NCBI GenBank assembly: GCA_030267565.1
Contig: BRXU01000002.1
Span: 310,001 to 374,000, forward strand
Length of the DNA stretch: 64,000 nt
Reading direction: 5' to 3'
DNA from: Pleodorina starrii
Lineage: Eukaryota > Chlorophyta > Chlorophyceae > Chlamydomonadales > Volvocaceae
In this document: positions 11,295-48,286 of the stretch, one piece after another
Layout: each line of letters starts with the position of its first letter
Numbering within the stretch: the stretch's first letter is position 1
Made by a program: the position numbers and the translations under genes
Notes under the pieces: model-generated
What the model was told of the DNA's origin: nothing
Seen by the model: the letters and a program-made list of their open reading frames with translations, nothing else
Database searches by the model: none

Positions 11295-14200
11295 CTACCG
11301 GCCTCCCAGCCAAGTCCAGCCGCAGCGAACCCTGCATCCGCCGCCGCCAGCGGCGGCGGCGGCGGCACCGCCGCCGCTGACTCCTCCCGCCACTTGGTCA
11401 TCTCCCCGCAGCGGAAGACGGTGTTTCGAAGCATCGCTGCCGGCGGCGCCGCCGCTGCCGCCGGCGCCACGATCGGGGCCCTTGCCGGCGCCATCGCCAC
11501 TCGAGACCCCACTCGGCAGCCGGGCCTTCGCAGCTGCATCGCTGCTGCCGCCAGCCGAGGCGGTGGCGGCGGCAGCGGCGCCGCCACCGCCACTGCCAGA
11601 CGGCGACGGCGACGGCCTGGTGAACGACGCCGATGGCCCGACCGCTGCCGCCGCCGCGGCCGCTACACCGCCGAGCCGCGCTCGGCCTTCATCTTTGTTG
11701 CGACGGAAGCGCACTCGGTTCGTGACTGAGACTGCTCCGGTGGTGGCCAGGAGGACCAACTGCGACCCAGGGGTCGTTCCCGTGGGTCGGTGAGGGCGGG
11801 GGACGCCGAGTCGGTGGGTGGTGACCCGTGGGTCGGTGACGGCGGAGACGAGCGTGGGGAGGGGGGGACGGGGAAACGGGGCACAGGAACAGGGACGAGG
11901 TTTGGTTGTGATGCAACGGCGCAGCGGAATGGCCGCGGAGGGAAGGGGAGGGGAGAGGGGGTTGTGCAGCGGAAATGAACAAACCCCCAGACACACATAC
12001 ACAAACCACACACACACAAGACACGATCGATCACTTGGCAGCTCCCTGGCGCCCCACCTCGCCACCTCGTTCCCTCTGCCACCCACCCACCCACCCACTC
12101 ACCCACCCACCTGGTACACCAACGCCCTCGTCAGCGGTCGCGGCACCAGCCCCGGTTGGAGCCGCTGCACCCCCCGATACATCAGCCATGTGGCGGGGCC
12201 GTCGGCCAGAGACACCAGCAGCCGGCAGGGAAGACCCATCTGAGGTGTGGGGTGCGGTGGGTTGGGGTGGAGGGCGGCGCAGGGCGGTGGGGACAGGGGC
12301 GATGGCAGTGGCAAAGGCATGCAAAGACGTCAGGACGGCCGGCACGGCACCAAACCGCAGTCGTGTAACCGTGCAGCAAGGCGGCCAGGCGGTCAGGTGA
12401 ACAGGGCTGGGCAGCGGAGGGCAGCACGCTGCGTTTCGCCGAGGAAGCCGAACCGAACCGAGGAAGAGGTCGTCCACGACCGCAGGATGGAGGAGGAGGA
12501 GGGAGGGAGGGAGAATGATGGTTTGGGAGAATGGCCCGAGGACGGAACTTGGGAGGGTTGGAGAAAGAGCGCGGCACGACGGGGGAGGGACCAGGAGGTG
12601 ATGGGTTTTAGGGTTTTAGGGTTGCATGCAAACAAACACAGAAACACGCACACCCTCACACGCATACACGCACGTCAGGCGTGTACACTCCCACGCAGCC
12701 CTGACCTGTTCCAGAAGCGGCCGCACCACTGCCTCCAATACGATGTCGCCGCCGCGCGCCACAAACGCCTCCGCACCCGCCTTCAGCCGCGGCAGCGGCA
12801 GCCGCGGCGACAGCGACAGCGGCAGCGTGAATGGCTCCAGCGACAGCCCCACGGCCGCCTTGACAGCTGCACGACATAGCTGCGACGCCAAAAGCGCGAA
12901 CTGCAGCCGCCGAGGGCCGAGACCGCCGCCGCGGCTGCCGCCAAGCAGATGCGACCCGTGCGTCTGTGGCGTCGCCGTCGCCGCCGTTGCTGTCACCGTC
13001 GTGGCGGCGGCGGCGGCGGAGGCGCTCTGCGCGGCGGCCTGTTGGTTGAACCAGGCCACCAGAGGCGCCGCGTGAGGCAGGTGGAACGCGAGCGCCGTGA
13101 GGGCGGTTTCGGAGCTGCCGTACAGGGCGGCCTTGCCCCGGGAGAGCAGCGGCGGCAGCACTTTGGTGGCGGCGTAGAGCGCCAGCGTGCCGATGGACTG
13201 GTACGGATAGGTGAGGGAGATGTGCTGAGGGTGAGGGGGGATACATCTCGATGGGATTGTTGCAGCAGGGCTCCGTCAGGTTATACTTCCAGTGGGGCAA
13301 AGAGACGCAATGCTTCAGGAAGGGAAAACCCAAAGACATTTGTGGACCGGACAGGTCAGGAGGAGGTCATGTCATGTCATGTTAGGTCAGGAGGAGGTCA
13401 GGTCAGGTCAGGTCATGTTAGGAGGAGGTCAGGTCAGACAAGGTCAGGTCAGGTCAGGAGGAGGTCAGCTCAGTTCAGTTCAGGTCAGGTCAGGAGGAGG
13501 GGCCATGGAATCGCTCAACCCACGGGCACCCACCCAGCCAGCCAGCCAGCCACCCACCTGGCAGTCCACCGTCTCCACAAAGCGCTGCTCCAGGAAGGCG
13601 GAGGAGGAGGAGGAGGAGGAGGCATCCCGAAAGCCCAACAGCAGCTCCGCTGCGCGAGCCAGCGGCGGTGGCGGCATCAATGCGCGCCGTACCACCCGTC
13701 GTACCGTGTCGTAAGCGCCCCACAGCCGCAGCCGCCAGCGGCCGCCTAGCTGCGCCGCCAGCGCGGCGGGCGTCAGGCCGTCGTCCGACGCCGCCGCGGC
13801 GGCGGCCCATGCAGCGGCGGCGCTGTCGTACGTGCCCAGCAGCCACGCCGCCATAGCGCCGCCGTCGGGCATCGCGGCGGCGACGTGGAGGGGCGTGACA
13901 CCGCCGGCGGCGCGAGACAGCCATGGGTTGCTGGCGGCGCTGCGGTACACTTGCTCGTGGCATCGCAGCAGAACCGCCACCATCGAACGTGAGCCGGCGG
14001 CGACGGCAAGGTGCAGCGCCCCGGCGCCGGTGGTTTGCGGCGCCAGTACGGCATCCAGCAGCGCCGTCAGCGCGCCGCCGGGCGGCCGGCCGTCGTCGCA
14101 GGCGACCACGCATCCAACCAGACGGTCCGCGGCGGCGGCGACGGCGGCGGCATCGGCGGCGGCGCCCTGGCAGCACACGCCGAGCAGGTCCGCCGCCACC

Positions 14201-32099: not shown

Positions 32100-35000
32100 T
32101 CACATCGCCGCTCGCCGCCGTCGCTGCTGCGGCTCCGGTTGCTGCAGCTCTAGCGAGTGGGGGTGAGGGTGAGGGTGGGTATCGAACGAGGTGCGGCTGA
32201 GATCGGCCTCGCGACGCACTCGCGCCGCGGCCATTCGGCCGCCGCCGCCGCCGCCGCGGCGGCCTACGCCAGACCCCGCCGCCGCTGCCGCGGCCGCTGC
32301 CGCCGCCGGCGGTTGCACCGGAGCGGAGAAGAACTTCTTGCTGAGTGCGGCGAGGTCAATGCCGGGCTCATCATCCTCGGTTTCGCTGACCTCGGCTGCT
32401 GACGTCTCCGGCGCCGCCGGCTCCGGCTCCCTCGCGCCATCCCCGACCCCGACCCCGCCCTCGTCCTCGTCCACGTCCTCGTCCTCGCCGCCGCTCTCTT
32501 TGTTGAAGCCGTTTAGTGCGTCGACGGCGCGACGGCGGCCGTTGGCAAACTGATGTCCGTTGGCGCCCCGCGCCGCCGCCCCCGCATCGGCGGGCTCCTC
32601 GTCAATGCCGCCTTCGCCTCCGCCGCCGCCGCCCTGCATCTGCCGCATCTGCTGCAGCACTGCCCGCGGGTGACTGGTGGCGGACTCCCTCCCGCCCCGC
32701 GCCGCCAGATCGCCCCTCCCCGCGCTGCCGTTCTGTGACGCTGAGCCCAGGCCACCTGCCGCACCGAATGCCGTACTGACGCCCTCGGGCGAAGACTTGC
32801 TGATTCGTAGCCTCGCCTCGTCCATCCAGCTCAACGGTTTCGGAGCAGCACCGCCTCTGCCCCTGCCGCCGCCATTGATGCTGCGCGTCGGGGCATCAGC
32901 ACCAGCGGCGGTGTCTCCGGCGGCGGCATCAGCGGCACCTCCGGCGGCGACACGTACAGGATCCGGATCCGAATCCCGATCTGGATCAGCCCCCAGCGGC
33001 TCGCTGCGGAGAGGCTGGCTGCCAGACGCCGGCGGCGATGACGACGACTCCTCAGAAGACACGGCCGCGGGTACATCGCCGCCTCCGACGCCGAGGGCTG
33101 ACATATCGTCGTCGTCGGGTGCCGCCCCAGGGACCGCCGCCACCTCCGCCTCGGCGGCCGCGTAAGCTCCGAAAGCGGCAGCGCCCTCGCCGCCGCCGTT
33201 GCCATGGCCATTGCCATTGCCGTTGCTCAGGCTAAAGCCGTCGCCGTGTCCTCCTCCGCCGTAGCCGTTTGTTCCGCCGTACCCGTTGCCAGATTCAACT
33301 CCGCTGCCGCTGCCGTTGTAGCTGCCACCGCCGACCGCGCCCCCACCACGCAATGCCACGTCCATGGATGGCCGCAAGCCGCTAGCGCCCAGGAGGCCGC
33401 CCACGGCGCCGCCGGGCGCACCACCGCCGGCGGCCCCACCGACGGCGCCGCCGCCGCCGCCGCCAGAAGCCGCTGCGAAGCCCTCCAACGGCACCCACTG
33501 CTGCTCCAGCTGCTGCTGCTGCTCCAGCTGCTGCTGTTGCTGCTGCCTCCGGTCCAGCTCGTCCAACCGCTCCAGGGCGGCAGGGGGAAGTTGGTGCCGC
33601 CACTCGGCCAACCGCGCCTCCGCCTGCGTTGCGTTTTCCGTGCGGGCCGACAGGAATGTGGGCCGACAGGAAAGCGCCGTTGAGGGGAGGGGAGGGGAGG
33701 GCGAAGACAGCGCGACTGGTTGAGTCGAGCGCAGTAGAGGCAGTAGAGCCCATCACCACCACAACAACATAACTACACAATAATGACCCAACAACAACGA
33801 CCATGGTGAAGGCATCCCAGGACCGAGAGCCGAAGAAGGCTTCTTGCTGCGACCAACGAGCGAGCTGGCACCGCGGCACCGCGAACGCCGAACCCCGTCG
33901 ACCAGCTCCTGCCCGCCCCCATGCGGTCAGCCACCCATCCAGCCACATTGCGCTGTCCCTGCTGCCCTGTCCCACCCTGTCCCACCCTGTCCCGCCCTGT
34001 CCCCACCCACCTGCGACAACACGGACCGCGCCGCCAGCAGCTGCCTGACAGCCTCCGCATCCGCCTCCCCCGCCGCCACCCTTGCCTCCAAGCCCGCCTG
34101 CTGCTGCTGGTGGTGGTGGTGGTGGTGGTGCAGCTGCTGTTGACGTTGCTCCAGTAGAGTCAGGTTGTCCCGCTGCTGCCGTACCAACTGCTGCAGCCTC
34201 AACACCTGCGTCGTGCGGGGGGGGGGGGGGGGCGGACACCCGGGGCAGAGGGACAGAGAGGAAGGGGAGTGAGTGGACGGCGCGCACGACCCCAAACATA
34301 CACACATACCGGCAAACCACTTCATCAGCGCGCAGCGCAGCGCACACGCACACACACACACTCTCTCTCTCTCTCTTTGCCTTTCCTCTGTGGCCCTCCC
34401 TGGAATACATAACACAACCCTGCCCGCCAGCAGCCCACTCCCGGTGCTCAGCCGCGCTCTCCTGCCACCACCGCACCGCCCAGCCCGCCCATGCACCCAC
34501 CCAAACGTCCAACCGCCAACTTCCAACCACCCACCTTGGCCAGGAGCTCCCCGGGCAGCTCGGCTGCCGCCGCCGGCGGTACGGCAGAAGCCTCCACGTC
34601 GATCGCCCCGCCTTCACGCGCCCCCGCCGCCGTCGTCGCGTCCGGCATGGACGCCCGAGAGAGCCACCAGGGCTGTCGTATCCCAGTAACGCCATCCAAC
34701 TGCCCCGTCCCCGCCGCCGCCCCGCCGGCGCCACCGGCGCCGCCGTGCCGCGCCCGCCGCCGCGTCGACAAGATCAGCGATCGAAGATCTGGATCCAGAT
34801 TCCCAGGATCCGAATCTAGCATGGACTGGTACGCCGCCTCCAGCTCCTCGTCTTCGGTGCCCGAATCCGGATCCAAGCCGGATCTGACCCACGTCCGCGC
34901 GGCGGGACGACCCGCGGGTCGGCCGCGCGAGCGAATGACCTTCGGCTGCGCCGCCGCCGCCGCCGCCTCCTCGCGCTCCGCTGCCGCTTCCGAGCGGCTG

Positions 35001-36592
35001 CGTCTCGGCTGCCGGAGCCAGGCGAACGGTTCACTGCTGGCTGCTCGTTTCTGGGCGGAGCCGGAGCCACGAGGTCGGCCCGCGCCCTTGCGACCGTGTC
35101 GCCGAGCCATCTACAGAGGAGACACACACATTCACATATACACATACGCACACGCTTGCACGTCAAGCTCAACTTACGGTACTACCGAGCACCCCAATCC
35201 CAACTCCCTTTCCACTCCCATCCCCACTCCGCCCTCCTCGCCCATTTCTTCACACTACGTCTGTCAGCCTGCCAGCCTGCCCGCCTTGGACTCACCGCAA
35301 TGCCTCCTCCCTCCCTCCCCTCCCTCCCTTCCCGCCGGCTCCCTCACCCACCTTGTTCGCCAGCTCCAGGCTCATGCCCTCCTCGACGATCTGGGTGTAA
35401 CGCACCGAAACCACACCCAGCGCGTCCCGCTGCGCATCAAAGACCTGCTCCGAGACCAGACCCCGCTCCAGCAGCCGCTTCAGCCGCCAGCGCAGCACCG
35501 CCCGATCAAGGCGCCGCCCGTCGGGGCTCATGGACCGCCACCGGCCCAGCAACCACAACTGCAGAGGCAGCCGGAAACGAACCACGGGTCGGGGTTGGGG
35601 TCGGGGTCGGGGTTGGGGTCGGGGTCGGGGATCTTCAGGTACCCCAGGAGACCTCTTATAGGGTAAACGCGGTCCAGCCTGCACAAGCCGCATCCCCACA
35701 TTCCCGCAGCCCCCGCCGTCGGCTTGACACAGAGCTCCCTCGGCCTTTGTCCCTCTACTGCGGCACCCCGAGGGCCAGGGCCTGGGCCAGGGGGCCTGCA
35801 CCCGCGCGACTCCCACCGCCCCACCCACCGCAACACCCACCCACCGCCGCACCTACCGCCCCACCCACCCACCTGCATATCTCTCGGCGACAGCAATCCC
35901 AGCGAGCGGTTGACCTCGTCCTCGCCGTCAAAGCCTCCATCCACCAACTGGCCCTGCTCGTCCAGTGTCGCGCCCTTCATTAGGTACGGCCACGCAGACG
36001 AGACCTGCTGTACGACAGCCAGCTGCGCCACCTGCCGCTTGGGCCCTATGACGCCCCAACCGCCCAACTGCTCCAGTCGATGGCGCAAGTGGTACACTCG
36101 CAGCTGCTTCTTCGCCGCCGAATCTTCGCCGCCGCCGGCGCGCAGATACTCAATCGTCGTACGACGCAGCGTCTCCGGCGGCGCCAGCAGCTCAAACACA
36201 GACGGCTGCTCCTGCAACAACACCTCCAGGCGCTGTGCCACTCGCTCGTCCATCTCCGCCTCGGCGCGAAGCCCCGCCGCCACCGCCGCCTCCGCCGACG
36301 GCGCGACCCACTCCACATCCGTCGGCGGGTGCCGGTACGCGCCGCGGCCGGTACGCGGCCCGGCGGGCTGCGCTGCCGCCGCGTCCGCCGGCGGCGGCGG
36401 CTTCGCCGCTGCCGCCGCCGCGACCTGGTGCTCCAGCGCCGACGGCGGCCTGCCGTACACGCGGTGCAGCTCCGCCAGCGGCTCCGCCGGCTCCGACAGG
36501 TCCACGCCGGCCGACGCCAGGCGCCCCTGGAGCGCCGCCACGAAGAGCTCCTGCTGCCGTATGCTCAGGCGGGGGATCCGGGGGGCGGCGGC

Positions 36593-36626
<34 letters not shown>

Positions 36627-39600
36627 GTCGCCCTGGACTTGTCGCGCTCGGCACGTGCCCGTGACACGGAGAGCTGATGGAGTTGGCTTCGGAGCAGCGT
36701 CGCGTTCTCGTGCCACAGCTTGAGCTCTGCCGTACCCGCCGCCAGGCGTTGCTCGTCCAGGGGCGCCAGGGGCGGCAGCGGCGCGCCGGCGGGCGGCGGC
36801 TCGCTGCGGCTGGACAGCAGGGCGCGCAGCTGGTCCACATTGTCCTGATGGGTTTTAGGGTTTTAGGGTTTTAGGGTTTTAGGAGTTCAGGGTTAGTTTT
36901 TAGGTGAAATGAAAGGGTTTTAACGTTATAAGGAAGGCTTTTAACGCAACACATGCACCCACACACCCGCACCTGCAGCGCGTTCATGAAGGGCCGCCAA
37001 GACAGCGTCGACCAGATCCGCAGCACCCGCTCCGCGCTCAGACCCAGCGCGCCCTCCAGCCACGGCCGCCCCGCCTCCTCCGCCGGCGGCGGCGGCGGCA
37101 GCGCCGCCGTCGTCGCCGTCGCCGCGGCGGCGCGCAGCGCCGTCGGCACCACCAGTCCCATCGACCGGTTGCGTCCCACCGCCGCCTTAACCTCCACACG
37201 CAGCGCCTTGCACCCCGCCCGGAACGCCTCCGGATCGGCATCGAACTCCTCCAGCAACGCCGCGCGCAGGCGCCGCAGCTCCTCCGCCGCGGCGGCGGCG
37301 GCGGCGGTGCCGCCGCCGGCGGCCTCCGCCTCCGCCAACGTCGCCGCCAGCTGCAGCGCCGCGATTCGACCGCGCGGCTTGGCGAGGATCTCCCCGCGGT
37401 GCAGTCGCACTCGCCGCGACGCGGCGGACATTGCCGCCATTCGCTGCGCGTAGCCCTCCGTCGACACCGCGCCGGCCTCCCGCAGCTGACGCAGTCGCTC
37501 CCGCGCGTAGTGCTGGTGGTTTCGCTGCGAGTGGGGGTCCAGGGGTAGCCAGGCGGACTCCAGGGAGGCTTGGAGCTGCTCGGGCGGTTGGAGCAGGGCC
37601 TCCACGCGGATGGCCTCCCAGGAGGCGGGGACTGGGCGGTTGGGAGTTAAGAGAAGCGGTTGGGCGTTAGTACCGTACCGGAGAAGAGTAGAGGAGTGCG
37701 GAAGTTTAGCAGGCGGAGGGTGCAGCACAGACGGCGGCAGGAGGGTCCCAAGGACACAGGAGCGCAAAGGCGGGTGTTGTCCGCCCCACGTCAACACAAC
37801 GCACTGTGCCCCGGGGCACCCCAGCGGGGGCATCCCCCGGGGCACAGCACCGCGCAGCCACCCCGGACCCCACCCCACCCCAACCCCAGCAAAGCAGAGA
37901 CACGCAGATTATGGTACGTCAGCAGTTACGTTAACGCCCAGGCAGTACAGCAGTACAGCAGTACTCACGTGCCGCCTCCTGTTCCGGAGTAAGTGCGTTG
38001 GTGACGCTGCGCCGGTACCGCCCCGCCCGCCCGCCGACGCGGCGGCGCACGCGCAGCGCCGCCGCGCCCTGCCCCTCCTCCCTCCCCGCCGTCTCTCCTC
38101 CCCCCTCCTCCTCCTCCTCGGCCGTCTCCGCCTCGTCCTCCTGCTGGCCCCCATCCCGCGAGGCGACGGCGGCGGTGCCTGCGGCGCCGCCGTTCCTGCT
38201 GCCGCGCATCTTGGACCGGCCCACTGCGCTGCTGGCGGTGGCGATGGCGGTGAGCTGCTGCCGCAGCGCGGCGGCGGAGAGCGCCCCCGAATCGAACCGC
38301 GCGCGGACCTGCTCGCGGGTGCGTTCCAGCTGCGTGGGGACGGGGACGGGGAGGGAGGGGAGGGCTGAGTCAGAGGGGGTTCCGTGAGTGCGATAGGGAG
38401 TTGTTACAGCCGTCCGGGGCGGTCCAGGGGAAGGAGGAGTGTTGGTTGGTTGGTTGGTTGGTTGCCCCATACGGTACCGTACTCACGAGCCGCTTTCTGG
38501 ATATGTAGTCCGTGGCCGCCAGCTCCCGCAGCAGCCGCTCATGCAGCGCCTTGGGGGGCAGCACCGCCAGCTCGGCGGCCTGCAAAAAGTACGGACTTGT
38601 ACGGCGTGCAGCCCGCCGCCGGCTGCCGCCGCCGTCGCCATCCAACTCGCCCTCGTCCTCGCCGCCGCTGCCGCTCTCCTCGGCTCTGGCACTGGCGGCC
38701 GCCACCTCGTCCTCCTCACCCCCGCTCCAATCCGACTCGGACCCGCTGAGGCCCTCCAGGGAGCCCAAGTCCTCCTCCGCGCCGCCTCCAAGGCCGTCCC
38801 GCCCCTCCTCCGCCTCGTCGCCGCTGGCGCTGCCGCTGCCGCTGCTGCCCGCTTGCTGCACCACGCTCCGCCACTCGCGCGCCAAACTGAGCGTCGCGTC
38901 TCGCATGACCAGCACACCCGCCTGGGCGACCGTCGACTCGATCTCCCCGCTCTCAGCCATCCTGCGGTGCGTTGGGATTGGAGCAAAGTGCAGCGTGCCA
39001 AGTTGGGGTTTGGTTGCAGGCACCAGGGCACCAAGAAGGACCGAGTTGTGTTGTGTTGTGTCGTGTGTCTGTGTGTGTGCGGGGGAGGATGTACTAGAGG
39101 TCACAGACAGACATCAAAAACCCACATTGCGGCGGCGAGGAACGGCGGTGGGTGGCGAGACACGCATGCGCAAGGAGTCGGCGGTGGTGGCGGCGGCTGC
39201 GGCAACACAACCCACCCACCCACCGTACCCATTACTCTCGTCTTGGTAAGGTTACATGTATACTCGGCAAGTACTGCTGGGTTCCGGGTCCGTTCGCCAA
39301 CGTCGTCTCCGTCCCTCCGTTGCGGTATCTTCTTTTTTTACCCACCGTATCCATTACCACCCACCCACCTGTCCAGCGAGTGAAGCAAACGGCGCTTGAG
39401 GCGCTTCCGGGCCAACGGCCCCAGCGCCCTCCACTGCTCCGCCAACCGCTCGGCACCCCACTCTGCCTCGACCGCGGCGCGCCGCCAGAAGGCCGCGTCA
39501 GGCAGCGTCACCGCCGCCGCCGCGCTCTTGGCTTCCAACGCCGCCGCCGCCGCTGCCGCCGCCGCGCTGGCGGCCGCTGTGGCCTCCTCCCCGTTTCTCA

Positions 39601-42600
39601 CCAGGTAGGCCTGCAGGGGATACGCACCAGGTACCGGACATCAATGCCGCAATTGCCGCAGTAGCATCAGTAGCATCAGTAGCATCAGTAGCAGCAGCGT
39701 GAGGGGCAGGTGAGAATCCAAGGCAAGGTAAACAGGCCCGCCCGCACAGATGCCAAATTGACAATGCATGCTGCGGCGTACGGAAGAGAAGAGCCGACGG
39801 GAGGCGAACCGACGGGACCATTCAGCAACGTGGACGACATTGGGGGCGCGGCGCGGTTGGATGGCCGCAGACAGCCCAGCCCTTCAACCCTCTTCAAACC
39901 CTGCAACTCCCAACCCAGCAAAAACCCTCTGCCTCAGCCCCGGGGCCCAAGGGCCCAGTCCCACCGACCCACACCGCCCACTGAGGCATGAGGCATTACA
40001 TGTGTACGAGCAAAAAATGGCTGGTAACATGCGTCCCCCACACCGCCCACTGCCTGCGTGCTGCCGTACCTGCAGCGACGCCCGCCGCACCAGCTCCTCC
40101 GCCCTCCACAGCGCAGCATCGTCCGCCAGCCCCACCTCCAGCGCTCTCCGCAGATTCCGCCGCAGGTTCTGTACCTGAGAGTTCTTGTGCGATAACCGCA
40201 AACTAACCCACTGGCAAACCAGCGCCTCGACCACGCGCGCGTCGGCGTCGGCGTCGCCGATGGCGTCCGCGCCGGCGGCGGCGGCGGCGGCGTCCGCGCC
40301 GGCGGCGGCGGCTGGCGCCAGCAGCAGCATCAGCTGCTCATTTCCTCGTAGCTGTAGAAGCACCACAGCGTTTCGCAGTACGGTTTCCGCTACAGCCGCG
40401 GCCTGCTGCGGCAGCGCGCCGGCGTCCGTGGCGCGGCTGAGCTTGCGACGGACGCTGAGCAGCAGCCGCGAGCGGGCGTACTGACCCATGGGTCCCATGT
40501 AGTCCGCCAGCTGCGCCGTACGGACCACCTCGTCCAAGTCGTTACGTAAGACGTGTTGTACGACGGGGTCCTGGGGGCAGTCAGGGGCGTTATGGATGGG
40601 AGTGTGTGTTGGAGTGCAAGGAGGGGGGCCCGGGACAGGGGCAGGGAGAGGAGAGATGAGAGGATCTGGCGAGGCGGCGTGTGGGGTGACACCCATGGCG
40701 CACCTCCTTGTGTTCTGGTCCCTTCTGCACTGTGCTTCAGCGTCAGCAGTGTATGACAGTATGAGTGTATGTGTGTCTCTTCGGCCGAAGTAAGATAAGT
40801 GTCGGACGCCGCGGCGGCGTCCCAGATGCATTCGGCAGCGGCGGGGGGCCGTTGGACGACGCCCCCGCCCCTCGCCCCATCTCTCACCCCACCCCACCGC
40901 AGCAGCTCTGCCACCACACCCCTGGACTCGCCTTGCCTCTCCCCCGTGTTTCCCAGGACCCAGCACCCACCATTCCGCCCCGATACCCCGTGTTTCCCAG
41001 CACTTACCTTGAGAGAGGGGTACAGGTCGCCCTCCCCCTGCCCCAGCCCCTGGCGCCCAGCCACCCTCTCCAACCCCAACAACGCCGCCAGCGACCCCAG
41101 ATCTAGCTCCGCCAACCCCGACGCCAGCCCGGCGTCAGCCGCACGCTGCGCCGCCTCATCCGACTCGCTCTCCGAGCCCTCGGCCGCCGCCGCCGCCGTC
41201 GCCGCGGCGGCGGCGGCATCGGCGTCAGCCGCCGCAACGGCGTCACCACCGCCGTCGCCAGTCTCTTCGTCCGTCAGAACCCCCGTCAAGCGCTTCTGCC
41301 GATCCAGCGCGTATAATCGGATGGCCGCGACGGAGGCGTCCAGAACCGCCTGGCGGGCGGCGGCGGCGGCGCCGCCGCCGTCAGCGCTGCCGTACAGCTT
41401 GTCGAGGTGCCGCAGCGCGGCCTTTGTGTGGTAGCGGATCGAGTCGCGGGTACGGCCGCGCCACTCGCCCATCAACCGTTCGTACAGCTCCCCCGGCGGC
41501 AGGCGAAGCAGGTCGGTCGTCATGTAGGCGGTTGCGCTGATGGGACGCGCGGCGGGACGCTGCCCGGTGGCAGTGGCGGAGTCGCCGCCCCCGAGGAAGG
41601 CGGCCAGGTTCTTGGGGTTGAGCGCATCGACAGCCTTCGCAAGGGAGGGAGGGAGGGAGAGCGGCGGCCAAGAGGCGGCGGGCAAGGGGCGTGGGCTCCT
41701 CCACGGCTACGGTAGGCCCTCCTCCTCCTCCTCCGCCTCCTCGGCATGCCCCCATGACAGCGGCCGAGTGAGGTTGGGGGCGGCACGCGCGGCGTCTTTG
41801 CTCCTTACACCCAAGGTGTCCTGAAGGCTGAAACACACACACAGACACACACATGTCCCACTACCTCACTTGAACCCCCCCCGGCCCCCCTGGAGCACCA
41901 CCATGACGTGGTCCGCCACCCCCTCCCTCCCAAAGTCCCAATCCGCATCAGCTCACCGCGATCAGCTGATCAAGCTCCTGGTCGCTCAACAGCTTCGCGG
42001 AGTGCACTCGGAGCGCCGTCTCCTTGACCCTGAGGCAGCGGCAGTGGCAGCAGGCAGCAGCAGCAGCAGCGGCGGTGGTGTGTCGTTCGAAAGCTTTGCG
42101 CTACCCTAAGCCACACAACCACACGGGGAGCTGTGGGCGACGTGCCGGCGACTGGCAGGGCAGCGCCGCCCTTCCACGCACACACGCGGTGTGTACGTGG
42201 ACGCAGGCGCATCCAGTCGAGATTTCGTTCTACGACATTACGGCGGGAGGCGGCGTGCCGGTTACCCTTCCAATACGTTGAACTGCCGTCACCGCAGCTT
42301 TTCATCTCAGGCAGCAACTCGAGGCGCGCGCTAGGTGACTTTGCTTCGAACCGGTCCAGTTGCAGCTGCTGCCGCCACTACCATGACCGCATTTCACTTT
42401 CCCAACCACTCTCCAACCAACCACCTAATCCACACCCACCCACCCAGCCCTTGCACCCACCCACCCACCATCGGCGATGGAACCGCAGCACCACCTCGCC
42501 CCGGGCCGCCACGGCCTCCGCCACCGCCCGGCACACCACCCCCGGCGGCTGCAGCACCAGCCACGCCGTCACGTAAGCCACGCGCCCCGTGTAATCCGCC

Positions 42601-45600
42601 CCCCAGCCTCCCCCGCCAGCCGCCGCCGCTTCCGCCGCCGCCGCTTCCGCCGCCTCCGCCGGGCCCGTCGCCGCAAGCGCCGCCGCCAGCGCCAGGTTCT
42701 TCGCATCCGCGATGATCTTGAGCCGAGGCTCCAGGAAGGCCCGCCAGGCTGCGGCCGCCCCGGTTTCGGAGCGGGTTTCGGAGCCGATCGCGGCGGCGAC
42801 TGCCACCAGCAGCTCATCCTCCAGATCGGTCGCCGCAACGCCCAAGCCCCGCACCGTCCGCCCCCGCCAGAGCTCCCTCAGCAGCGCCGTCAGCCACCGC
42901 CGCCGCCGCGCCGCCGCCGCCTCCCCCGTCTCCGCCTCCGCCGCCTCCGCCGCCGGCCGCCGCCGCCGCGCCCCCTGGGGCTGCCGCTCCTCCATTGGAT
43001 CCGATCGCGCAGGCATTACCAGATCCAGATTCCGATCCAGATCCAGCTCTGGATCCCGACGCAGCATCAGATCCGCGGGTGCACGTGCCTCTACAAGCAG
43101 CGAAAGAGCATCTTGCTGCTGATGCAACAGCTCTGGGGCGGGGTGCTGCCCCTCGGCCGCCAGCTGGTCCAGGCGCTGCGACGCGGTGTGGACGGCGTCC
43201 TGCGGGTTGGGGGTACCGGAGGGGACGAGGCCGCAGCGGTGGAAAGGGGAGGCGAAGGGAGGGACGATGTTGGGGCTGAGTTAGAGGAAGGGGAATGGGC
43301 CCCGCCGTCGGCGGGCGGACCGCGGTGGGTGCGCTCTGGAGGCCGCCGTCCGCCGCCCCGCCCCCGCCCCTCCACCCCTGCTCGACCACACGCGTGAGCC
43401 ACCCACCCTCACTCGCCGTTGTCGCGCACGCGTAGTGCAACATACATAGCCGCACGCATAGCCACACGCCCTGCTGTCCCTGCCAGCCACCCCCCAATCC
43501 TAACCCAACCTCCCACCCACCCACCCACCTGCAAGCTGCGCCGCGACTTGCCCCGCCACGCCTCGTTGAGAGCCAGCATCAGTTGCTCCGGGGGCGCCCC
43601 CAGCAGCTCACTCGTCACCGCCTCCACAATCTCCAGCCAGCGCCGCCCCCGCCGCCGCGCCTCCCCCACCGCCCGCAGCCGCTCCGCCAGACCCTCCCCG
43701 TCCAGACGCCCCTCTGCCGCCAGCTTCTGTATGCGGGGACGGGGGAAGGGGCCGACCGACACGGGCAGCCAAGCATCCGGAATGAGCGGCGAAGCGCGAG
43801 TGTGGGTGTGGGTGTGTGGGGGTGTGTCTCAGGCCTCTCGGGTGTTGCTGGGCAGATCCAGCCACACGCCCGGCCGCCCAGCCACCCTCTTTAGCCATCC
43901 GCCCACCCAGTCACCCGGCCAGCTACCCGCCCATCCAGCCACCCAGCCGCCCACTCACCCAGCCAGCCGCACACCCCCACCCATCTTCGCATCCAGCGGA
44001 GTCTCATCTTGATTACCGCCCAACCCCATGCACCCAGCTACGCACCCACCCACCCGCACCCACCCACCCTCACCCACCTTCAGCATATTCGCTGCGCGCT
44101 CTCCATGATACTTGGTGGAGTCGCTCGAGGAGCAGTTCCTCCGCATCCCCTCCATCAGCCCCTCCAGCACAACCCCGGGGGGCGACAGCAGCAGCCGAGG
44201 GGTCAGGTAGGTGGTCTTCTGCGCCACAAACGTGCCGCGAGACGCGTTGCGGAGCACCAGCCGGCCATTCGGCCCCAGCCCCATCTCAGCCTCCTCCTCC
44301 GCTGCTTCCTCCTCCGCTGCCGCCTCCGCTGCTGCCGCTGCTGCCTCGACTGCTGCTGCTGATGCACCTCCGTCGGCCGCGGTTGCGCCATCCTCCCCTC
44401 GGTGCGCCTCCAACTGCCTCCCCTGCCGCTGCCGCTGCTGCCGCCGCTGCTGCTGCCGCTGCTGCTGCCGCTGGTCCCCTCGCAGTCGGCTGTCCTGCTG
44501 CTGCCGCTGCTCCCCCTCTCCCTCCTCTTCCTCCTCGCCCTTCTCCACTTGGCGCTCCTGCCGCCCGGCGCTCCTGGCGGCGATGACCTCCCTGGAGCCC
44601 TCCGCCGCGCGTCCCACTGCCGCCAGCCGCTGATCCGCCTCGCGCCGCCTCCGGTCGCTGGCGCTCTCAGCGCCCCAGGCCCTCAGCCGCTCCGTGGCCA
44701 CCCGGGCGTGGCGGCTGACCTGCGGGGTAATGGAGCAAAGCAGGGAGCAACGCAGGCGCCAGACACAGGAGACACACAGCAGGGCGGGACTTGGAGCCAT
44801 CGCCTTCCGCAACAGGGGGCTTGCTCCCTCTGACCCCCCGGCCTGGACCGCCCTGGCCTGGCCTCCGAAAACACGGCGCCCAACCCCGCCCAACCCCTGC
44901 CTCCCGTGTCCGCCCGACCCCTGCTGCGCGTCCGCTCTCTTCCGCAGGCGAGGCAGTTGTCGCCTCCGCAGCCGCAACCCGCAGTCCTCGTCACCCTCCT
45001 CCGCTGCGGTGTCGCCTTTTCTTTGATGTCGCCCCACCCCCACCCCCGCATTGCACATCTACCCAAGGGCCCTCACCCTCAGTTTGGTCTCCATGCCGCT
45101 CCACAGCTCCAGGAGGGCGGCCTGAGCCACCGCCGAGCAGTGTGCGGTGCGCAGTGTGCGGTTGGGGGCAGCGGTGGGGGGCAGCGGTGGTGTGCAGCGC
45201 GGTGAAGCACGGAGGGAGGGAGAGAGAGAGAGAGGAAGAGAGGGAGCCGCTGAGCTTCAGGGGAACCGCCGACGTCGCAACGGGCGGGGGCAAACTCCCC
45301 GCGCGGAAGCGGGGGCGCCGTAGGTCACCAGGCAGCAGCGGCGGGGGACCGCCTCCCCTGCCGCAGCCATAGCCGCTACCCACCATCCGCAACCAACCAC
45401 CCAACCACCTCAACGCCCAACCACCAACGAACCGACGTACCTCCAACTCCCTCGGTCGCCGCTTCGTCAGCAGCTCCTCGTCCAGATACTTGACGGTGTG
45501 GACATCCACCGAACCGGCACCGGAGGAAGCTGGCGCCGACGCCGACGGCGCCGACGGCGCGCCGCCCCCATGCGCCCCGCCCAGCCCTCCATTCCCGCTA

Positions 45601-46490
45601 CCGTTACCATTCCCGCTGCCGCCGTGCCCGCCCCTGCCGCTGCTCCGGCTGCTGCTGCCGCCATCGCCCTCGCCCTGACGCCCCACCGGCTGCTCCCCGC
45701 CCTCCTCCTCCTCCTGCTGCTGCTGCTGCTGCTCGGCTCCGTCCGCCGCCAGAGGGCCGCCCCGGGTCCGAAGAGCGCCTCCGGCGCCAGCGCCAGCCTC
45801 GCCACCCGCGGCCTCCTCATGCTCAACCACGGCTGCTGTCGTCGTTGCCACAAGCGCCACGCGGCCGACGGCGCCGCCGCCACCGCGGCTCCGAGAGGCG
45901 GCCTGTCGGAGGACGAGGGGGCGAGCCGTAGCGGCAGCGGCAGCTGTAGATGGGACCGCGGCGTTGTAGCCAAGGAGGCCGCTGGCGGTGCGGTGATGCT
46001 GCGCCGAAGTGCTGCTGCTGCTGCTGCCGCTGCTGCCTGTGACGTTGCAGTCAAGTAGGCCGCCGCCAGCGCTGCGGGCTGCGTGCCCTAGGGCCGGCCG
46101 CCGCCCAGCAGAGGGCAGGGGGTTGGCGGCCGGGTCGGGGGAGCCGGCTTGGGTTGAGGCCGCCGCGGTGCCGTCGCTCCTGTCGTCAGAAATGCCTGAG
46201 GAGGAGGAGGAATTGGAGGACGACACAAGGTCACGACGGTTCTTCCCAAGGGTCAACGCCTGGGAGCACGATTGCGGATGGGTTTGTGTTGCACAGGGTT
46301 GTTAGCGAGTCAAACCGCGGATGTGGGCATGGGTGGGATTTGCTCACCAGGATCGTCCATCATCCTCTGCAGCAGCTGCTCGTCGGAGGGGCTCAATGCG
46401 ACGGCAACCGGTGGCCTGCGCCGCTCGGCCCAGGGCGAAGGCACGAACGGCTTCGGCTGAAGCGACCATGACCACCGTGGATGACGCCAT
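32100..46490 (-). CDS. Giant organelle-targeted helical-repeat protein, about 2,969 residues, family not recognised
   Basis: Eighteen exons, all closing in phase: 46348-46490, 45441-46179, 45077-45121, 44078-44719, 43529-43726, 42469-43199, 41957-42029, 41008-41634, 40070-40570, 39369-39610, 38487-38961, 37969-38329, 36973-37631, 35873-36844, 35352-35558, 34535-35110, 34011-34205 and 32100-33623. The N-terminus (MASSTVVMVASAEAVRAFAL) looks like a plastid transit peptide. The chain carries about 12 copies of an alpha-helical unit, roughly PPxxL-xxxL-xxxW, then 10-15 variable residues, then RLxxLxxxG. Clear copies are LPPGELYERLMGEWRGRT, APPEQLMLALNEAWRGKS, QPPEQLQASLESAW, LPPKALHERLLREL and APPETLRRTTIEYL. 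Low-complexity Ala/Gly/Asp/Glu linkers, a His7/Gln run and a long disordered C-terminus separate them. Exon 1-2 and exon 8 borders are less certain. The size and repeats suggest a scaffold or RNA-binding solenoid, but that is inference. Confidence 0.85.
36850..36883. repeat. Interstitial telomere repeat (TTTTAGGG)4 next to a splice acceptor
   Basis: Four uninterrupted ggttttag units lie in the intron between exons 13 and 14 of the giant gene. Its acceptor CAG (36845-36847) comes 2 bp after the array in gene orientation. Confidence 0.95.
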
Positions 46491-47022
46491 GATGCGTTGG
46501 GTCCGCGCTTCAGGCCGACGCGGCAGAGGAGCGTCCGGTTTGTGGCACCAAGGCTGCGTTCTGCGTGTTGGAACGCCGCTCGTTCCTCGTGCATCCGCCT
46601 AAACCTTTGCTTGTGAGCCAATTCTCCAACAGAATTCACTTCATCCTCGTGAATTGATTTATTTGTGAAAAGGTGCACAGTGAGTGGAAAGAGTAGAAAT
46701 TTCGGTCGGAGAAGTACCTAGTACAGGTAAAACGAGCACATACGCTTAGTATACTTGTTGATAGCTGGCGTCTTGTGAACGATCCGTGCCCTCTGGATAG
46801 TTTTCCAGTTGGTTGCTTGGTTCGCACTTGCACGAACGGCATTTGCAGTAAAAAATATCAACGTGCTGCCATCGTTGTGGAAAAAAAGCCACGTTGTATG
46901 TATAGGTCATACTGAGTGTTTGTGCTGATAAATAGTAGTAATCGACCACAGACCCGTCGTCTCCCGACTGCCGTCCGGGTCCCGGCGAGTCCACCACATT
47001 TTCGCCGTCAAACGCACTTGCC
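46491..47022. promoter_or_regulatory. Shared divergent promoter region
   Basis: 532 bp between the start codons of the minus-strand giant gene (46490) and the plus-strand mitochondrial-type gene (47023). It is more AT-rich than the flanks. No individual element can be assigned. Confidence 0.5.
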
Positions 47023-48286
47023 ATGCAAGGCTTACTACAATCCACCGCTTCTTTAGGTCCCCGAGCGCTCAGTGCGCTTTCGAGATCTGCCGCATCGCAC
47101 TGCATCACCCACGGCCTGCTCCCTCCGGCGCTCGCCTCAGCGCTGCGGCTGCCGTCGTGTTTACCAAGCACCTCAGACGCTCCTTCCTCCTCAGCCGGCG
47201 CAGCGCCCTGGGGTTGCCGGCTGCTGCACGCCTCCACATCCGCCCGTGCCGATGATGCGCTCTTCCCGCAACGCGCCTCCTCACCATCCTCCACCACCAC
47301 TCTGCCAGCCACCTTCGCCTCGCAGCGATCGCCGCTGCACCTCGACGGCTCCCGCGGCGCCGACCCCGGCGAGTCGCGCTACACGGCACCCTACTGGATC
47401 CCCGAGGATGTTCGCCGGGCAAACCACCTGCCCGAAATCCTCTTCACCGACCCCTGGCCCCCGCACGACGAGCCGGAGATCCGTCGGCGTCACGCGCGCC
47501 TCTGCTACGACCTGCTGCTTCACTCCCCGCGACCGTTGACGGCGGAGCAGGTCCGCGACGCCGTCAACGACCGCCTGCGCGAGCAGCAGCGCCACGTCGC
47601 GCCGCCGCCGCCGCTGCTGGCGACCACAGCTTACGTAAAGCAGCTCCTGGAGCACATGCGCCATACACGGCTCCTGTACGGCAAGAAAAACCCGGAGTCG
47701 ATGCTCAGCGGAGGCCACCCGGAGCACCCGCGGCTGTACAACGCGCTGCGCTACCAGGCGACCCGCTTCGGCAACCCGGCGCAGGTGGCGGAGCACGATG
47801 CGGCGCGGGCGGAGAAGCGGCTGCAGCAGGCGTTCAAGCGGCTGCGGCGGGGCAAGCCGCCGTATGCGATCCACCGAAGGTACGGCATGGTACGGCGGCG
47901 GCGTATGTGACTGCTAGGCGCATCGTAGCAGGCCGTCTGTCCCTGCTGCCGCCCTCCCACCCCGTCTTGCGCCCCGCACCTGCAAACCCTAAGCATCCCT
48001 GCCGTCCCGTCCACGAAGTCTCACGAAGCCTCAGGGGACGTTCGAGCGCGAGCGCCCTGCTCCCTCCTTATCCCCGTGGGTCTCTTGTCGCGCTCCGTCT
48101 TAAGGCCCCGTCCCGCCCTATCCCGCCCTGGCGCCTGATGTCCGACGCAGGCGCGCGTTCTTCAGTCTGTGGCAGCACGAGTTGGCGCAGGAGGCGCTGC
48201 GGGGCGTCGGCGTCGGCGTGGGCGTAGGCGTGGGCGTGGGCGTGGGAGCGAGCGCGGGTGTGCCGGCGGCGGCTCTCAGCAGCTGA
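47023..48286 (+). CDS. Basic mitochondrial-targeted-looking protein, family not recognised
   Basis: Two exons, 47023-47879 and 48151-48286, joined at a GTACGG donor and a GACGCAG acceptor in matching phase, give 330 residues. The first 90 or so residues are rich in Ser, Ala, Arg and Leu with no long acidic stretch (MQGLLQSTASLGPRALSALS), typical of mitochondrial presequences. The mature part starts near YWIPEDVRRANHLPEILFTD and is very basic (RRRHARLCYDLLLHS; AFKRLRRGKPPYAIHRR). Exon 2 adds RAFFSLWQHELAQEALRG and a (Gly-Val)7 tail. Without splicing, the frame would end YGMVRRRRM at 47910; the in-phase second exon is preferred. Basic charge and targeting would suit a lineage-specific mitoribosomal or RNA-associated protein, but I recognise no domain. 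It is head-to-head with the giant repeat gene. Confidence 0.75.

Follow-up and report, generated by a model that had tools for sequence, protein, structure and literature searches.

The window examined here, a 64,000-nucleotide stretch of the Pleodorina starrii genome (contig BRXU01000002.1, positions 310,001 to 374,000 of the forward strand), carries a gene for a giant protein with repeated copies of a unit of about 76 amino acids (aa) that fits none of the named repeat families tested and may be a new building block. The gene occupies positions 46594-32100 of the minus strand in 18 exons, with a coding sequence of 9030 nucleotides and a product of 3009 aa (313.8 kDa, isoelectric point 6.07). 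Eleven copies of the unit are clear, one is weak (unit 7) and two are degenerate (units 4 and 12). In green algae, organelle genes are under the control of large repeat proteins, and the known families leave some candidates uncovered. The unit would offer a tractable new domain, as a clean repeat whose order is kept from Chlamydomonas to Volvox, which was found in a single gene and for which Pfam, NCBIfam and solved structures gave nothing convincing. We tentatively interpret the protein as a multivalent scaffold.

The repeat exceeds chance. Its consensus, drawn by eye, is roughly xxYLTxxLLxLPPxxLxxxLxxxWxxxxxxSxxxHxxxxxxRLxxLxxxGxLSxxxLxxxLxA. We delimited 28 units by eye (11 in P. starrii, 10 in the Chlamydomonas schloesseri ortholog P0002 and seven in the Volvox africanus ortholog P0001) and applied a leave-out test, in which each unit was scored with a profile from all other unit positions and compared with 300 shuffles of itself. 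All 28 units, drawn from three species, scored above 300 of 300 of their own shuffles (8.4-48.3 bits), and two disjoint sets of unit positions aligned to each other with an hhalign probability of 98.3 (E 1.9e-14). The all-unit profile recovered 12 units in the P. starrii protein at E<=0.01, 11 of them in its training set and one, unit 7, outside it, and a block-shuffled control (100 copies) yielded 0.04 units per protein. The degenerate unit 4 was compared with the unit alignment by hhalign using four orthologous rows, and none of 60 column shuffles reached its score; unit 12 went undetected by the all-unit profile at E<=0.01. The C. schloesseri protein has one extra N-terminal unit, C00. The copies in P. 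starrii are as follows.

44582..45491, minus strand: unit 1 (aa 318-395), 44.7 bits; leave-out test
43631..44215, minus strand: unit 2 (aa 518-595), 72.4 bits; leave-out test
43071..43624, minus strand: unit 3 (aa 598-672), directly after unit 2, 61.2 bits; leave-out test
42675..42920, minus strand: unit 4, degenerate (aa 723-804), hhalign score 21.3, probability 29.1; below profile detection at E<=0.01
41593..42578, minus strand: unit 5 (aa 837-911), 61.3 bits; helix bundle in ortholog model
41308..41532, minus strand: unit 6 (aa 932-1006), 68.7 bits; ortholog modeled
40364..40516, minus strand: unit 7, weak (aa 1125-1175), 8.3 bits; hhalign probability 61.7, reached by 0 of 60 shuffles
39599..40240, minus strand: unit 8 (aa 1217-1277), 37.0 bits; leave-out test
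38868..39478, minus strand: unit 9 (aa 1318-1385), 43.7 bits; leave-out test
38207..38585, minus strand: unit 10 (aa 1480-1553), 64.5 bits; ortholog P0003 modeled
37396..37620, minus strand: unit 11 (aa 1637-1711), the top profile match, 79.6 bits; ortholog P0003 modeled
36668..37071, minus strand: unit 12, very degenerate (aa 1820-1911), hhalign score 14.3 (highest of 60 shuffles, 13.3), probability 1.7
36488..36580, minus strand: conserved segment in the interval between units 12 and 13 (aa 1941-1971, RIPRLSIRQQELFVAALQGRLASAGVDLSEP), kept in P0002
35975..36211, minus strand: unit 13 (aa 2064-2142), 62.7 bits; ortholog modeled
35382..35914, minus strand: unit 14 (aa 2163-2235), 61.8 bits; ortholog modeled

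An initial annotation of this DNA, made from the letters alone, had listed 12 copy positions, 11 of which lie inside profile-scored units, whereas the twelfth (37050) corresponds to degenerate unit 12, which the profile misses and which only just exceeds its shuffles; the list also omitted weak unit 7 (40364-40516) and degenerate unit 4 (42675-42920). The motif proposed with it, PPxxL...L...W followed by RLxxLxxxG, is a consensus; its two parts occur literally three and four times. Introns were considered as unit borders and rejected, their positions within units differing from intron to intron; four of them (in units 1, 3, 10 and 12) fall between helices B and C in phase 0.

The individual copies have counterparts in the orthologs. 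For nine of nine Chlamydomonas units and seven of seven V. africanus units having a counterpart, the best P. starrii match carries the same index. Mean identity between orthologous units is 39% for C. schloesseri and 64% for V. africanus, while units within the P. starrii protein average 19% (55 pairs, maximum 36%). Because orthologous units are more alike than neighboring ones, the unit copies are, on these identities, older than the Chlamydomonas/Volvox split, each having kept its own identity and its place in the order. The units would thus have escaped homogenization since the split, and from this we infer that they have separate jobs. From unit 1 to unit 14, counting all residues, identity with P0002 is 42% for units against 32% for linkers, and over the stretch covered by P0001 it is 60% and 40%, the linker figure probably being inflated by low-complexity letters.

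The P. starrii genome (95 contigs, 136 Mb) was queried with the consensus, with unit pairs and with units one at a time, and in this non-exhaustive design of single-sequence queries no second gene with the unit was found. Besides the giant gene, the queries hit 14 further loci, with E between 0.088 and 5.67. On those 14 loci and on 20 PPR/RAP control loci the unit profile gave nothing convincing, its one match at E<=0.5 among the 34 (E 0.21) falling in a control locus, within a stretch rich in Arg. Scans of viral and prokaryote contigs produced 224 and 106 pattern matches, none of which was confirmed as a relative.

The gene model was obtained by reading splice sites on the minus strand, exons 2-18 first and exon 1 from ortholog comparison. 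Exons 2-18 (n=17) run in phase up to the stop at 32100, all 17 introns have GT..AG borders, and the guanine-plus-cytosine fraction by codon position is 0.78/0.57/0.83 over all exons versus 0.645 overall in introns. Its features are listed below.

32100..46594, minus strand: whole gene, start codon to stop, from splice-site reading and colinearity with P0002 (C. schloesseri HYH02_005517)
46594-46348, 46195-45441, 45121-45077, 44719-44078, 43726-43529, 43199-42469, minus strand: exons 1-6
42029-41957, 41634-41008, 40570-40070, 39610-39369, 38961-38487, 38329-37969, minus strand: exons 7-12
37631-36973, 36844-35873, 35558-35352, 35110-34535, 34205-34011, 33623-32100, minus strand: exons 13-18
46173..46594, minus strand: conserved N-terminal segment (aa 1-90, MHEERAAF...DDPGISDDRSD, with intron 1 inside), start as in P0001
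32328..32360, minus strand: conserved C-terminal motif IDLAALSKKFF, aligned with VDVAQLKSKFF near the end of P0002

Protein searches, restricted in length range and scored only for the candidates with the most words in common (7977, 2540 and 7997), returned five records from three species (V. africanus, C. schloesseri and V. reticuliferus).

P0001: V. africanus, 1556 aa, partial, 50% identity over 69% of the query region
P0002: C. schloesseri HYH02_005517, 3195 aa
P0003 and P0005: V. africanus, 888 and 445 aa, partial
P0004: V. reticuliferus, 446 aa, partial

A three-way alignment shows the P. starrii protein to be colinear with P0002 between the end of exon 1 and the C-terminal KKFF / SKFF, and this colinearity up to the C-terminal motif argues that the locus encodes one giant protein rather than several genes. 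The partial V. africanus and V. reticuliferus proteins are likewise colinear with it. All relatives of the gene seen so far are volvocine. An ortholog in C. reinhardtii or V. carteri did not turn up in the protein searches, whose restriction by length range and most-shared-word candidates means that absence is not implied; residues 1885-2560 of the C. schloesseri protein, used as a query, matched only themselves. A literature search under the four ortholog names tried found no mention.

The start of the gene had to be revised. In the corrected model exon 1 lies at 46594-46348 in the frame MHEERAAF..., with exon 2 following from 46195. This start is common to the P. starrii model and to P0001, which continues through the exon 1/2 junction peptide DPGISDDRSD, a peptide that reads DPGISRDRRD in C. 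schloesseri; annotated P0002 begins only at MMLDPGISRDRRD, that is, at the end of P. starrii exon 1. The start at 46490 (MASSTVV...) was rejected, as splicing to exon 2 at 46259 leads its frame into a stop and the conserved protein is in the other frame, and a rescue by a later exon 2 acceptor is contradicted by the ortholog junction DPG|ISDDRSD. The initial annotation was right in the number of exons, their phase and the stop at 32100, and wrong in the start and exon 1. The transit-like start it had described falls because the frame read from 46490 (MASSTVV...) is the wrong one, and with that peptide goes the label of a plastid-type protein, since the corrected start MHEERAAF... is not diagnostic. 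The corrected N-terminus is Arg/Ala/Pro-rich (12 Arg/Lys against 4 Glu in the first 67 residues), yet opens with MHEER. As a separate observation, intron 13 contains, just upstream of its acceptor (36853-36883), nearly four tandem telomere-type repeats, TTTTAGGG on the plus strand, with two further copies at 12606-12621.

To place the unit among known families, Pfam was run on the P. starrii protein in pieces, namely a first 17-exon model to about aa 2361, whose opening 21 residues are assigned to an intron after the correction, and exons 1, 2, 16, 17 and 18 singly. The region of about aa 84-2361 (2300 residues, all units) gave no family at E<=5, and the single exons gave two weak matches (E 0.048 and 0.37), both below cut-off and both in the Gln/His-rich exon 17, outside the units. 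Matches in the five orthologs were below cut-off only. When 23 single units were scanned, DUF1707 was best, also below cut-off, and 12 other families reached E 0.0062 or weaker. NCBIfam gave nothing below E 0.02, PDB sequences included no significant relative of units 11-12, P0002 or the unit profile, and PHROGs gave weak matches only, to unnamed families (best E 0.014). The likeness to DUF1707 is confined to the second half of unit 2 (E 8.6e-5), where its 22.9 bits lie below the cut-off of 27.6; 3 of 23 units match it at E<=10, over half a unit or less. SHOCT matches unit 11 of V. africanus and V. reticuliferus (E 0.0023 and 0.03), but at 18.1 and 14.5 bits (and 15.9 in another ortholog scan) against a cut-off of 27, in 1 of 23 units at E<=10 and again over half a unit or less. 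The helical cap domains of cobalamin proteins (AppA SCHIC, CarH and methionine synthase) are counted with these among the nearest known systems.

Scans of the P. starrii protein, its units and the orthologs revealed no TPR, HAT, mTERF, HEAT/ARM or other Pfam helical repeat, although highly degenerate copies could escape such scans. PPR repeats (35 aa) had no Pfam match in about aa 84-2361, and the PPR_3 profile, as a positive control, found 20 matches elsewhere in the P. starrii genome. An OPR-type profile, assembled from 14 repeats, some partial, read near RAP domains of the same genome, scored at best -3.8 bits on the giant protein (shuffles up to 2.6), with an hhalign probability of 0.2, or 0.1 for a tandem pair; on these values both membership of the OPR family and the idea of two OPRs per unit were rejected. 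A RAP domain, which is present in several OPR proteins although not in all, was found neither in the P. starrii parts scanned by Pfam nor in full-length P0002. The earlier impression that the unit bears no OPR or PPR signature and may be a new family is supported at the level of sequence, no Pfam, NCBIfam or PDB match being convincing.

Structure was predicted with AlphaFold2 for two V. africanus orthologs, P0003 (10 alignment rows; mean predicted local distance difference test score, pLDDT, 66.9; predicted template modeling score, pTM, 0.36) and P0005 (six rows; mean pLDDT 58.5, pTM 0.30). In these models a unit consists of one short and three longer helices. Units 10 and 11 of P0003 (residues 31-110 and 201-280) have block-mean pLDDT of 88-97 and 90-97, and units 13-14 (residues 591-800) form one ordered stretch at 75-96. 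Units 5 and 6 of P0005 lie mostly at 70-92, with blocks of 48-56 at each unit start and in one loop. The unit is accordingly predicted to be a compact four-helix bundle, composed of a short helix followed by helices carrying PPxxLxxxLxxxW, SxxxHxxxxxxRLxxLxxxG and LSxxxLxxxLxA. The P0003 equivalent of the RIPRLSIRQQELFVAALQGRLASAGVDLSEP segment also forms a helix (residues 517-533, blocks at pLDDT 74, 94 and 89). Foldseek found no match in the PDB at E<=0.001 for either model (0 of 162 and 0 of 133), and VIA-align of the models gave only middling Z values, the bundle being about equally like many helical folds.

The 11 linkers between the 12 scored units measure 122, 2, 164, 20, 118, 41, 40, 94, 83, 352 and 20 residues, are often long and in sum acidic, and leave three close unit pairs (2-3, 5-6 and 13-14). 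Several have pLDDT below 50 in the ortholog models, including that between units 5 and 6 in P0005. Because the linkers are mostly long and several are predicted to be disordered, the protein can be described, on the models, as beads on flexible linkers. The initial annotation is supported in its helical unit, while the solenoid it proposed can be no more than a conjecture, given that 8 of 11 linkers span 40-352 aa and several are predicted disordered. For the linker between units 13 and 14 (about 35915-35974; P0003 residues 708-716), the ortholog model predicts a pair of short strand or bridge elements that might amount to a small hairpin, in which case these two units may form one block.

We favor, with a probability of roughly 0.4, the interpretation that the giant protein is a single-copy multivalent scaffold in which each module would hold a partner surface of its own and the flexible, in many cases long, linkers would let one molecule bridge several sites. 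Nucleic acid or ribonucleoprotein, perhaps that of an organelle, would be the most likely partner, because the majority of units are net basic (10 of 11 in P. starrii, 7 of 10 in C. schloesseri and 6 of 7 in V. africanus, by small margins) and because the word GRPR, which we take to be AT-hook-like although Pfam does not confirm it, follows the last unit in all three proteins that reach this region (as GAGRPR in P0003 and RGRGRPR in P0002).

35066..35107, minus strand: basic stretch ARRHGRKGAGRPRG past the last unit, with an AT-hook-like GRPR core; no AT hook reported by Pfam in the exon
34913..34936, minus strand: IRSRGRPA, a further AT-hook-like stretch with the GRP core alone; no Pfam match

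Several observations weigh against this interpretation. Net charge is a weak argument, since the values for units range only from -5 to +6, P. starrii and V. africanus both have an acidic unit 3, units C01, C03 and C11 are not basic, and the whole protein has an isoelectric point of 6.07. Pfam reports no AT hook at E<=5 in the GRPR exon, P0002 or P0003, and GRPR-type words arise by chance in low-complexity sequence; the AT-hook profile is itself very short, and filters may drop true sites. In C. schloesseri the linkers are little less conserved than the units, and because of this closeness they may be more than tethers. The structural models, finally, rest on six and ten alignment rows with pTM of 0.30 and 0.36, and describe orthologs only.

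Other explanations draw on the same evidence. The modules might serve a protein-protein scaffold that binds no nucleic acid, a proposal in keeping with a four-helix bundle about equally like many helical folds and with a weak profile match to the Lin-7 L27 domain (33 positions, E 0.036); we consider it doubtful, as the structural and L27 matches are at or near chance level and the units tend to be basic. A true alpha-solenoid trans-acting factor of the OPR/PPR kind, a stacked superhelix reading organelle RNA in the plastid, would suit the use that green algae make of large helical-repeat families in such roles, as described in parts of PMC8635915 and PMC13126933, and some units do stand close together (linkers of 2, 20 and 20 aa), with units 13-14 forming one well-predicted stretch in P0003. 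It is nevertheless unlikely, since 8 of 11 linkers measure 40-352 aa and several are predicted disordered, including that between units 5 and 6 in V. africanus, OPR and PPR signals are missing from the scans, the claimed transit peptide is in the wrong frame, and one gene rather than a family was found at the search sensitivity used.

That GRPR follows the last unit in each of the three proteins reaching this region, together with long linkers that are acidic in sum, might instead indicate a nuclear chromatin or transcription protein, with an AT-hook-like tail on AT-rich DNA and four-helix units that recruit partners. This, too, we judge improbable, the AT hook being unconfirmed by Pfam in the P. 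starrii exon, P0002 and P0003, and the N-terminus, with its excess of Arg/Lys over Glu, being compatible with organelle import. There is a small chance that the unit is the founding member of a new, modular nucleic-acid-recognition domain confined to volvocine algae, in which four-helix readers on flexible tethers, each at a different site, would clamp and organize organelle RNA or DNA, unlike stacked PPR/OPR solenoids.

The gene upstream of the giant gene raises a further option, a mitochondrial protein tied to the mitoribosome or to rRNA assembly.

47023-47910, plus strand: head-to-head neighbor, relative of mitoribosomal protein mL80 (7pkt_K, E 2.4e-59)

The start codon of the mL80 relative (47023, from the listed reading frame) lies 428 bp from that of the giant gene, so the two head-to-head genes may share a promoter. 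Neighborhood alone is a weak guide to function, however, and as no PDB sequence is significantly related to units 11-12, P0002 or the unit profile, no solved mitoribosomal subunit was recognized as a relative, which leaves a mitochondrial role of this kind very unlikely. A literature search returned nothing on Chlamydomonas mL80 and the mitoribosome.

Among the closest known systems are the OPR proteins of green algae, which are likewise large, nucleus-encoded, of the same lineage and made of degenerate helical repeats; with OPR repeats of 38-40 aa each, as given in part of PMC8635915, two would equal one unit in length. The giant protein differs in that long linkers separate most of its units, the genome searches yielded one gene only, the OPR profile does not match it, and Pfam reports no RAP domain in the parts scanned or in full-length P0002. 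The portions of Cattelin et al. 2026 (PMC13126933) concerned with alpha-solenoid organelle trans-acting factors describe a screen with 189 C. reinhardtii candidates, many of them without a Pfam domain or with disordered regions, and an ortholog of the giant protein could be among them; those portions of the main text name no such repeat, and the new C. reinhardtii paralog cluster reported there is ankyrin-like. Trans-splicing factors are tabulated at 45-269 kDa in PMC7912774, and in the part of the table considered none is an obvious match to the giant protein.

RAP itself has 12 matches elsewhere in the P. starrii genome. Three of them fall within about 22 kb at G000:C2:8469000-8498681, with OPR-type repeats in both regions read, and look like a tandem OPR-RAP family. 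Two others, at G000:C1:3811468 and C7:1713934 and hence on different contigs, have identical scores and frame lengths and are possibly a recent duplicate or an assembly artefact.

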